From: a bacterium
GTDB lineage: Bacteria > CSSED10-310 > JAJRTK01
Length of the DNA stretch: 15,320 bases
Reading direction: 5' to 3'
NCBI GenBank assembly: GCA_024278345.1
Contig: JAJRTK010000017.1
Coordinates: forward strand, 1 to 15,320
Shown: one piece after another, positions 330 to 15,320 of the stretch
Layout of the letters: every line of letters begins with the position of its first letter
How positions within the stretch are numbered: the stretch's first letter is position 1
Made by a program: the position numbers and the translations under genes
The notes under the pieces: generated by a model
What the model saw: only the letters and a program-made list of their open reading frames with translations
Told to the model about the DNA's origin: nothing
The model's database searches: none

Positions 330-2149
<1,820 letters not shown>

Positions 2150-4630: not shown

Positions 4631-5150
4631 CAAATACTCCCTCCTCTAGAACACTGGGCTTGCCGCCATATTCACCATGCATCTGGTGCGTTAGTCTATT
4701 CTCAGATCGGCAACCGTTTCGCAAATGGGACCTATCAGATCCGGTTGACAAGTCCACGCACGAAAGGAACCCACCGTTCAATTTCGTGAATCCCATCCAG
4801 CCCGCCACCGGCAAGATGCCGGTGCCACCGTGTCGGCGAAGAAAATTGTAAAGCAAAAACACGACAATTTGATAGGTCCCTCGCAAATCACGCAGAAGCC
4901 AGGCCGTCTCACGCGTCAAGAGCCAAAAAGAAACCGGGCAGGCATGTCTTTTTTGGGGTGAGTTCCGCGACTTCACGAGCAAGGTCGCCTGTTTGTCACA
5001 GCCCTCAAATGCACGCCGTTCGTCCTCAATGCACTGCCGCATCTCCGCCAAAACCAAGCAGCCACACCCGAAAACCAGCCTTGCTCGAAAAGCAGATGGG
5101 TCTCCTGCGAAGGGAGAAAAAGCGCAGCCCCCTTCCCAAACAGCGAGCCG
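4631..5150. other. gene-poor stretch holding a MITE copy
   Basis: Apart from the 154-bp element at 4727-4880 I see no convincing gene here. On the minus strand the upstream region of the thrC unit contains the strong ribosome site near 4641 and, at 4726-4631, the DNA between the element and the small gene, where its promoter would be expected; no clear -35/-10 pair is visible. A GAAGGG/CCCTTC inverted repeat at about 5108-5136, just past the stop of the next gene, has no T-run and is a poor terminator. A minus-strand open frame (4551-5057) crosses the element, but its ribosome site is poor and its sequence is unconvincing. Confidence 0.5.
4727..4880. mobile_element. MITE-like element, copy 1 (8-bp target duplication)
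   Basis: A 154-bp non-coding element begins GGGACCTATCAGAT and ends ATTTGATAGGTCCC. The ends are inverted repeats matching at 13 of 14 positions. It is flanked directly on both sides by TCGCAAAT (4719-4726 and 4881-4888), an exact 8-bp target-site duplication. An internal hairpin CACCGGC-AAGAT-GCCGGTG lies at 4806-4824. A second copy at 12236-12389 has the same length and about 90% identity. There is no room for a transposase, so movement would need one in trans; 8-bp duplications occur in several IS families (for example IS66, ISL3, IS1595, IS6), and I cannot choose. It sits about 97 bp upstream of the thrC unit's first start codon. Confidence 0.85.
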
Positions 5151-6181: not shown

Positions 6182-8179
6182 ATGACGAACGAATCGATGT
6201 TGCTCACGGTTGAACGAAGCAACGGCAAGTCGCAAACCAGGGTGCTTAGCGACGGTATTTACGGAATCGGGCGAGGTCCGGACAATGAGATCTGTGTACA
6301 GGATCAGGGGATAAGCCGCCGTCATGCTCGCATCATTGTCTCTGAGAAGGGAATTCGGATTGAAGATCTTGGCTCGAAAAACGGTGTTTTGGTCAACGGC
6401 CAGACCATTGAGGGCGGCAAGGCACTACGGGATGGCGACCAGGTGGTCTTGGGGCTTGCGTTCCTCACATTTCATCGCCCCGATAGCGTCCGGCGGTGGA
6501 TCGAAGAGAGCGAAAGCTCTTGCAGTACAGTCTTCCGGCGTATCGACTCGCAGATCACCGAGCTTCAGCTTGAGACTGTGGCCTTCGACCAAAAGGAACT
6601 GGTTCGTGCCACGGACGACGTGAAACGTCTCTGGGTCTTGTATCATACGGCCCGAGCCATGAGTAGCAATAAGCCTCTTCATGCCCGTCTTCACGCGGCT
6701 TTAGACTATCTTCGGATGGGTTTGGGATACGAGCGGGCCCTTGTAGGCCTGCGAAACTCAGATGGGACGAACTTTGCTCCCGTGGCGGTGCGCTCGGCCA
6801 GTGGCCTCGCCACAACAGTCGATGAAAAATTAGTGAACCGCGTGACAGGAAATCGCACTGCTGCTCTGACGAGGGTCGTGGATCAGTTGCGAGGGAACAA
6901 AAGACAATTCCGCTCCGTCCTCTGTGTTCCCATTTGCCTGGGCGAGAAAATGATGGGCTACCTCTACGTGGAGTCGGGACCGGAGGCTCAACCCTATTCC
7001 GGGAAGGACCTTGATCTGGTCAGCGCCATAGCCAACCAGGCTGCGTTCGCGGTGGACAATGCAGGTTTAATTGAGCAGCTCAAGGCGTCTCGAGATCGAC
7101 TTGAGAGAGAAAATGTCAATCTTAAGGAAGAGATCCGCTGTCAGTACGACCTCAACGGATTCATCGCTCAAAGCGGGGCAATGGAGCCGGTAAAGCGGCA
7201 AATCCGCAAAGTACTGAACCGCGACACAACCTTGTTGATCCTTGGTGAGAGTGGAACGGGAAAAGAAGTTACGGCGAAGATCATCCACTACAACAGCATG
7301 CGAGCTAGCCGGCCATTTGTAGCACTCAACTGCGCCGCGATACCGGAGAATCTTCTGGAAAGCGAGCTTTTTGGCATTGAGGCGGGTGTGGCAACGGGAG
7401 TGCAAAAGCGGATCGGCAAATTCGAACAGGCGGCGGACGGGACGCTGTTTCTGGACGAAATAGGGGAAATGTCCCTTTCTACTCAAACTCGACTTCTCCG
7501 AGTCATTCAGGAACGGCAGTTCGAAAGAGTGGGTGGCCACAAGCCTCTCCGGGTCCAGGCACGCATTATCACTGCTACAAATCGGAACTTGACGGAAGAA
7601 GTGCAAGAAGGGCGGTTTCGGGAAGATCTCTATTACCGGCTAGCTGTCATCCCTATCCTTTTGCCTCCTCTTCGTCGCCGCAGAGAAGATATTCCGGCGC
7701 TGGCTGAACATTTTCTCAAACTCCACTCTGATCGTCCACTAAAACTATCAGGAAGAGCTATCGGCGCCCTTTGCAGCTACGACTGGCCCGGCAATATTCG
7801 AGAATTATCGAACGAAATTGAACGAGCGACTGCTCTTGTGGAAGGCTCCATGATCGATGCCACCGATCTGTCCGATCGGCTCCAGCCCCCCCCCCATCCC
7901 CTGGCACAGGATCTCAAACACGAAGATGCCGGGAGCCCGGAAGCGCGAGGGTCTCGCCTGCCTATAAACTTGTCCTCCAAACTGGAAATTTTACCCCTTG
8001 GCAACCTCAAAGAACTGGTCTCTGCCGAAGTTGAACGGATCGAAACCCACGTCATTGCCCTGGCGCTCCAGGCGACGCGGGGCAACAAGCTTCGTGCCGC
8101 GAAACTCCTTGGCCTCAGCCGAGAAGGGCTAAGGAAGAAGCTGCAACGCTACCGCATGACTTCATCGGCCCGAGGCTGA
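6182..8179 (+). CDS. FHA-GAF-AAA+-Fis regulator (sigma-54 activator family) with altered GAFTGA loop
   Basis: A 665-residue transcriptional regulator. Residues about 7-97 are an FHA phosphothreonine-binding domain (YGIGRG, SRRHA, LGSKNGVLVNG). About 150-295 is a GAF sensor domain, followed by a short coiled coil (SRDRLERENVNLKEE). About 318-555 is an AAA+ domain with Walker A GESGTGKE (355-362), Walker B LFLDEIGEM (D425, E426) and FREDLYYRL. The C-terminus is a Fis-type helix-turn-helix (NKLRAAKLLGLSREGLRKKL). The loop that contacts sigma-54, usually GAFTGA, is GVATGV (402-407); without the Phe, remodelling of sigma-54 is doubtful or modified. FHA suggests input from a Ser/Thr kinase. Start ATG 6182 follows GGGAAGGGACTCA. 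A nine-C run (7886-7894) lies in the linker before the DNA-binding domain. It converges on the ccm genes; its targets are unknown. Confidence 0.92.
   Translation: MTNESMLLTVERSNGKSQTRVLSDGIYGIGRGPDNEICVQDQGISRRHARIIVSEKGIRIEDLGSKNGVLVNGQTIEGGKALRDGDQVVLGLAFLTFHRPDSVRRWIEESESSCSTVFRRIDSQITELQLETVAFDQKELVRATDDVKRLWVLYHTARAMSSNKPLHARLHAALDYLRMGLGYERALVGLRNSDGTNFAPVAVRSASGLATTVDEKLVNRVTGNRTAALTRVVDQLRGNKRQFRSVLCVPICLGEKMMGYLYVESGPEAQPYSGKDLDLVSAIANQAAFAVDNAGLIEQLKASRDRLERENVNLKEEIRCQYDLNGFIAQSGAMEPVKRQIRKVLNRDTTLLILGESGTGKEVTAKIIHYNSMRASRPFVALNCAAIPENLLESELFGIEAGVATGVQKRIGKFEQAADGTLFLDEIGEMSLSTQTRLLRVIQERQFERVGGHKPLRVQARIITATNRNLTEEVQEGRFREDLYYRLAVIPILLPPLRRRREDIPALAEHFLKLHSDRPLKLSGRAIGALCSYDWPGNIRELSNEIERATALVEGSMIDATDLSDRLQPPPHPLAQDLKHEDAGSPEARGSRLPINLSSKLEILPLGNLKELVSAEVERIETHVIALALQATRGNKLRAAKLLGLSREGLRKKLQRYRMTSSARG
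7886..7894 (+). repeat. C9 homopolymer inside the regulator gene
   Basis: Nine consecutive C residues encode the Pro-rich start of the linker between the AAA+ domain and the Fis helix-turn-helix. A one-base slip would remove the DNA-binding domain while leaving the AAA+ part. Whether it varies is not known; the sequence as given keeps the frame open. Confidence 0.9.
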
Positions 8180-8197
8180 AGCCCTGTCTTAGGGCCC

Positions 8198-8345
8198 TCC
8201 ACGCAAGGCGGGACATTTCATGGATTATGGAATTATCGGCGTTCGGGCAACGCCTCGCTTTGCTCGGCGATCATCCGGGGACTCTCCCCGATCCCCAGGC
8301 AGGGCTTTGCCCTGCACCCACGAGGGAGCCAGCTCCCTGGACCCA
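8198..8345. repeat. palindrome-rich repeat, copy 1, between convergent genes
   Basis: It begins TCCACGCAAGGCGGGACATT (8198-8217), identical over 20 nt to 15157-15176. It continues with CGGGCAACGCCTCGCT and ends with two adjacent hairpins, GCAGGGCTTTGCCCTGC (8299-8315) and AGGGAGCCAGCTCCCT (8323-8338). The second copy near the window end keeps the same order with an extra ~35-bp segment. It lies between the stop codons of the regulator (+) and the CcmD-like gene (-), so the hairpins could act as a two-way terminator, although no T-run follows. GCCCTGTCTTAGGGC right after the regulator stop (8181-8195) is another small hairpin. No coding capacity is seen. Confidence 0.7.
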
Positions 8346-8425
8346 CATTTTTCTAAGGTAGGCCTCGCTTATGCTCGGCATCTCGCTGCGCTCGGCACCA
8401 CGATGACCAGCTCCGGGAGAATTCG

Positions 8426-12008: not shown

Positions 12009-12235
12009 TGTTCAATCCCAGTTATGTCGACCCACTTCAAGCGGTCGTCGTTTATCCGCGGACGGTCCGTGCCAGGCCCCTCTGAGGGCCGGCAGCAGCC
12101 ACCCCATATTGCTTAGGCGGGAGGAGCAAGAACTTGGCACAACTTGGCACATCCTCGGCCTTCGGTGGTATCACGGGTCGCAAAAAAGAGGAAACAGCGA
12201 TCTGGAAAAGACCGGGCTTGCCGGATCATTTCAGG
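12009..12235. other. intergenic DNA between the MITE and the CcmI-like gene
   Basis: No gene is recognised. A perfect tandem 10-bp repeat AACTTGGCAC lies at 12131-12150. A hairpin GGCCC-CTCTGA-GGGCC with outer GCC/GGC (about 12070-12092) has no T-run. A 31-codon minus-strand frame (starting MGWLLPALRG) ends at the start of the CcmI-like gene but has no support. Confidence 0.35.
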
Positions 12236-12389
12236 GGGACCTATCAGATCCGGTTGACAAGTCCACGCACGAAAGGAACCCACCGTTCAATTCCGTGAAT
12301 CCCGTCCAGCCCGCCACCGGCAAGATGCCGGTGCCACTAGGGCGGCGCCGCAGAGTGTAAAGCAAAAACGCGGGGATTTGATAGGTCTC
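12236..12389. mobile_element. MITE-like element, copy 2 (8-bp target duplication)
   Basis: This is a 154-bp copy of the element at 4727-4880 in the same orientation, with no length change. It begins GGGACCTATCAGAT and ends ATTTGATAGGTCTC; the next-to-last base differs from copy 1. Exact 8-bp ATTTCAGG flanks it (12228-12235 and 12390-12397). The internal hairpin CACCGGC-AAGAT-GCCGGTG is at 12315-12333. The left ~100 bp differ from copy 1 at two positions, but the right ~50 bp at about fourteen. It sits just beyond the ccmF stop codon; the right target duplication ends within a few bases of that stop, so the insertion spared the coding region. Confidence 0.85.
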
Positions 12390-12403
12390 ATTTCAGGCTT
12401 TCC

Positions 12404-15156: not shown

Positions 15157-15320
15157 TCCACGCAAGGCGGGACATTCCCGGGACTGTGGAATCGCAAGCG
15201 TCCGGGCAACGCCTCGCTATCGCTCGGCGGGTCACGCCGCGCGTTACCCGTAGGTGGTCCGGGGATTCCATCCCCCGTCCCCTGGCAGGGCTTCGCCCTG
15301 CACCAACCAGGGAGCGCGCA
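15157..15320. repeat. palindrome-rich repeat, copy 2, runs off the window
   Basis: It starts with the same 20 nt as copy 1 (TCCACGCAAGGCGGGACATT), has CGGGCAACGCCTCGCT, then a ~35-bp segment not in copy 1 (GGTCACGCCGCGCGTTACCC). It continues with GCAGGGCTTCGCCCTGC (15285-15301) and the beginning of the second hairpin (CAGGGAGCGCGC), where the window ends. It lies upstream of ccmE. The hairpin loop base changes (TTT to TTC) keep the stem, which suggests structure is conserved. Confidence 0.68.

Follow-up and report, generated by a model that had tools for sequence, protein, structure and literature searches.

A high-copy family of 154-bp MITEs with 8-bp target duplications in the genome of a CSSED10-310 bacterium

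Two 154-bp repeats in the window, by which we mean the whole 15,320-bp stretch of DNA analysed (contig C311 of a genome of 6.06 Mb in 550 contigs that is 87.9% complete), raise the question whether they belong to a genuine family of mobile elements and what sets such elements in motion. An earlier note, made from the sequence alone, had described them as two copies of a MITE that carries no protein; 154 bp is indeed too short for any transposase, and it is natural to suppose that a transposase acts on the copies in trans. The analysis presented here indicates that the repeats are almost certainly members of a genuine, gene-less MITE family, moved in trans by an insertion sequence (IS) with matching ends that generates 8-bp duplications.

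Results and discussion

The features of the window are as follows.

252-324 and 333-406, minus strand: two tRNA genes, located after the 16S rRNA gene
590-2149, minus strand: complete 16S rRNA gene
4719-4726: left target duplication of copy 1, 8 bp, TCGCAAAT, identical to 4881-4888
4727-4880, plus strand: MITE copy 1, chimeric subfamily AB, left part A-type and right part B-type
4727-4740, plus strand: left terminal inverted repeat of copy 1, GGGACCTATCAGAT
4806-4824: central palindrome of copy 1, CACCGGCAAGATGCCGGTG, with the A/B junction at the palindrome or just past it
4867-4880, minus strand: right terminal inverted repeat of copy 1, read inward, GGGACCTATCAAAT
4881-4888: right target duplication of copy 1, 8 bp, TCGCAAAT
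12228-12235: left target duplication of copy 2, 8 bp, ATTTCAGG, identical to 12390-12397
12236-12389, plus strand: MITE copy 2, subfamily AA, between ccmF and the following ccm-cluster gene
12236-12249, plus strand: left terminal inverted repeat of copy 2
12315-12333: central palindrome of copy 2
12376-12389, minus strand: right terminal inverted repeat of copy 2, GAGACCTATCAAAT, with one extra mismatch
12390-12397: right target duplication of copy 2, 8 bp, ATTTCAGG

On rechecking, the coordinates, the length and both 8-bp duplications of the two copies proved exact, and the copies are identical at 138/154 positions. The match of 13/14 bases between the terminal repeats that had been claimed for both holds for copy 1, but not for copy 2, where position 2 also differs and 12/14 bases agree.

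A search of the whole genome for the MITE ends, as the earlier note had proposed, returned 347 matches to the 14-base end GGGACCTATCARAT with at most one mismatch, compared to 0 for the reversed control pattern. Because one or two ends are seen per copy, we estimate from these matches that the genome contains roughly 175-220 copies, which would make up about 0.5% of its sequence. A DNA search with the MITE gave 44 matches in the 40 of 264 candidates that were scored, and nearly all of these were family members with 88-100% identity. Copy statistics were obtained from a sample of about 1.29 Mb, which consists mostly of contigs with hits and whose densities are therefore biased. It comprises 74 two-ended copies, 58 of which are exactly 154 bp long, and the 14-bp terminal inverted repeat is nearly invariant (148 ends). 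With a length below 500 bp, many copies, conserved length, terminal inverted repeats, a duplication of fixed length and the empty sites described below, the family shows features by which MITEs are recognized.

The target duplications carry most of the evidence for transposition. Among the 72 copies for which both flanks are available, the 8-bp duplication is perfect in 50 and shows one mismatch in 9 more; no two of these 59 duplications are alike, and among the first 68 copies the longest exact duplication never had another length between 4 and 12 bp. Sequence shared beyond the borders, named at the outset as the observation that would speak against the element, is absent: outside the duplications the flanks are unrelated, with a mean identity of 0.26 (26%). 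There is no strong target-site consensus. In several cases, in silico excision of the element together with one duplication restored a continuous known repeat. The clearest of these empty sites is found on C533, where an A-type copy is inserted in a B-type MITE with the duplication CCGCCCCA, and where the restored junction is spanned by alignments to dozens of uninterrupted B-type copies, mostly at about 94-98%; further empty sites lie in other repeats. Half of a MITE is also preserved within the remnant of an IS1595-type transposase on C16. The earlier claims of base-exact borders and of past transposition thus hold in dozens of copies and are joined by empty sites in repeated DNA.

Many contigs end about 70-141 bp inside the element, as is expected at repeats, and the high copy number of the family explains many of the contig breaks in this assembly. 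These breaks might also suggest that the copies are an assembly artefact or a duplicated segment rather than the product of transposition. With two-ended copies inside contigs, 59 different duplications and unrelated flanks, this explanation is refuted and we regard it as hardly conceivable.

The aligned copies fall into the subfamilies AA (29 copies), BB (21), AB (7) and AC (3) and a divergent set (4). Copies of AA, BB and AB differ from the consensus by about 2-3%, those of the divergent set by about 18%, a pattern which, judged from the sequences, we would read as a recent burst upon an older background. In AB copies the left part is A-type and the right part B-type, and the two meet at the common central palindrome; full-length, near-identical relatives of copy 1 (99%) are found on C480, C353, C184 and C69. 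Since most AB copies share two private changes, at positions 58 and 69, the chimera arose once and then multiplied. The AB copies on C446 and C221 are without these changes and may represent separate chimera events.

Insertions are strongly biased towards intergenic DNA. Only 5 of 43 restored sites are located in reading frames of at least 250 amino acids, compared to 72% of randomly chosen positions (P about 3e-16), and copy 2 is inserted 15 bp past the ccmF stop codon within a run of ccm genes. This avoidance of genes may reflect target choice or selection.

Such an intergenic bias would also be expected if the repeats were structural RNAs or REP/BIME-like extragenic palindromes, kept for a role in transcripts or in the chromosome, and no transposons at all. 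The MITE folds strongly (z about -3 to -5), and most copies contain the palindrome CACC-GGCAAGATGCC-GGTG, the opposite strand of which reads GTGG followed by the palindrome and is thus REP-like. Changes in its arms are paired (CACA...TGTG in some copies, CAGC...GCTG in the array on C116), and tandem palindrome arrays with a unit of about 31-36 bp are found on C116 (L216 8213-8491), C28 (L097 5640-5876) and C153 (L160 1-164). In addition, a Y1/IS200-like (RAYT-type) transposase gene with a duplicated stretch inside is located on C390 (L214, about 7700-8350). However, every fully paired copy of the palindrome in the 1.29 Mb lies within a MITE or in an array that continues from a MITE end, and no independently dispersed GT(A/G)G-headed palindrome, as expected of a REP/RAYT system, was seen in this sample; nor did the window copies give a match in Rfam. 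To our knowledge, REPs do not show the combination of exact borders and 8-bp duplications, which is a signature of DDE transposition. Together with the empty sites, these duplications largely refute an explanation by RNA or REP elements, which we consider very improbable. The palindrome may play a role in the folding of DNA or RNA. It is also conceivable, though improbable, that the core of the MITE is a captured REP-type hairpin recognized by the Y1/RAYT transposase of the genome, so that the arrays would grow by one system while the whole element jumps by another.

For the MITE family as such, an autonomous IS with matching ends would supply the transposase in trans, and a staggered cut by this enzyme would give rise to the 8-bp target duplications. 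No intact IS with MITE ends was found among the genome contigs; of the full IS sharing these ends that the earlier note had called for, only candidate end fragments came to light. A left-end type that is not a MITE is present on C395, C385 and C390, which have about 100 bp in common, and a right-end type, GGGACCTATCAATTCATAGTATTTGGAGCTTACAAG, on C521 and C70. On C521 it is preceded by a reading frame ending in ...QRLTGCAIHDWLAELGYPPSHLLN*, of which 24 codons lie on the contig and whose stop codon is located about 90 bp before the right end; C70 keeps only part of this frame tail. Past the 11 common bases, 17/25 positions agree between the left-end candidate and the left end of the MITE (shuffle p 2e-5) and 14/25 between the right-end candidate and the right end of the MITE (p 0.003), compared to 4-5/25 in crossed comparisons with the opposite MITE ends. 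Because each matches the corresponding MITE end past the terminal repeat, the C395-type and C521-type sequences probably represent the termini of the autonomous parent or of a close relative whose middle part is unassembled. The mover would be a DDE-type IS that survives as a left end on C395, C385 and C390 and as a right end on C521, where the final 24 codons of a reading frame accompany it, and partly on C70. No contig was seen to carry both a left and a right candidate, and that they belong to a single element is what we infer. A left end matching the C521 duplication was searched for and not found.

Searches for the transposase itself were negative. The assembled genome gave no match to the IS256 transposase (Transposase_mut, PF00872), and the 24-amino acid frame tail from C521 had none in Pfam, NCBIfam or plasmids. 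Remnants of IS1595-family transposases are located on C322 (12275-12682), C295 (4162-4431) and C16 (3-155); among these assembled remnants, no IS1595 (PF12762) transposase lies beside MITE ends, and the right border GGCTCTATATGCG common to those on C322 and C295 differs from the MITE ends. A zinc-ribbon start on C390, which looks IS1/IS1595-like, was not taken as the parent because it lies beyond a putative terminase-like fragment. Several lone matches to GGGACCTATCA were likewise dismissed as element ends, being codons for GTYQI in probable genes. That neither a full IS nor a transposase domain was recovered with MITE ends, in a genome that is itself incomplete, would agree with genuine MITEs whose mover is absent from the genome, the C395/C521-type ends then belonging to other non-autonomous derivatives and the family being dead by now or mobilized from an unbinned replicon. 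We consider this a real but less likely alternative to a resident parent, as the reading-frame tail adjoins the right end, and as the low copy number of the C395/C521-type sequences and the contig breaks inside them agree with a multi-copy IS left unresolved by the assembler.

Two other repeats were noticed in the course of the analysis. A second MITE-like family, about 200 bp long, has 24-bp ends GGCCTCGGTCATGGTACCGGCCAC, of which the 1.29 Mb contain 54 with at most one mismatch, and its intact copies are flanked by duplications of 8 or 9 bp; members are located at L087 335-535, L187 2873-3072, L225 13165-13413 and L227 3099-3299. An abundant dispersed repeat of GC-rich palindromes is present in the window at 8198-8342 and 15157-15319; one of its palindromes, GTCCAGGGAGCTGGCTCCCTGG, occurs in 37 copies with at most one mismatch in 1.29 Mb, and some copies of the repeat carry MITE insertions.

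The exact 14-base end is absent in 7/7 genomes of the same phylum that were searched, and the one match in another phylum (L061) lacks a partner end and is of the kind that chance would produce. Nothing was found with one end variant in GTDB r220 genomes, with the end patterns in viral contigs or with the 154-bp query in plasmids and phages, collections in which the window's own record may be missing. As literature text, the 11-base end retrieved only papers on animal cells and on human or mouse genes. The 154-bp family is new, while bacterial MITEs as a kind are well known. Duplications of 8 bp and ends starting with GG are characteristic of IS1595, ISL3, ISKra4/ISMich2, IS256 and IS6; several of these families fit the MITE in duplication length and first bases, but none is linked to its ends by a transposase.

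Bacterial MITEs with hundreds of copies have been described, with ERIC reaching 711 (PMC10969869). Correia elements, ERIC, Chunjie and QMITE2 are, like the 154-bp family, multicopy and mostly intergenic MITEs, and QMITE2 combines 7-9-bp duplications with an internal GTAG REP palindrome, as the 154-bp family contains a REP-like one (PMC10969869); compared by description, not by sequence, the copies of QMITE and Chunjie vary far more in size. MITEAba12 of Acinetobacter, for which transposition has been observed, is likewise short, gene-less and nearly fixed in length (113 bp) with a duplication of fixed length (PMC6382973). In contrast to the 154-bp family, whose parent is incomplete, its terminal repeats match a resident IS, ISAba12, and it differs in having 9-bp duplications and at most 22 copies per genome. 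In REPs with their RAYTs (PMC2817692), as in the MITE, a GT(A/G)G head precedes a GC-rich palindrome whose middle is unpaired, but the palindrome of the MITE was not seen dispersed by itself.

Conclusions

The 154-bp repeats represent a clean MITE family of very high copy number in a bacterial phylum that has scarcely been sampled; its subfamilies are distinguishable, and it includes chimeras and nested insertions. The probable ends of its parent give the search for the transposase a concrete starting point.
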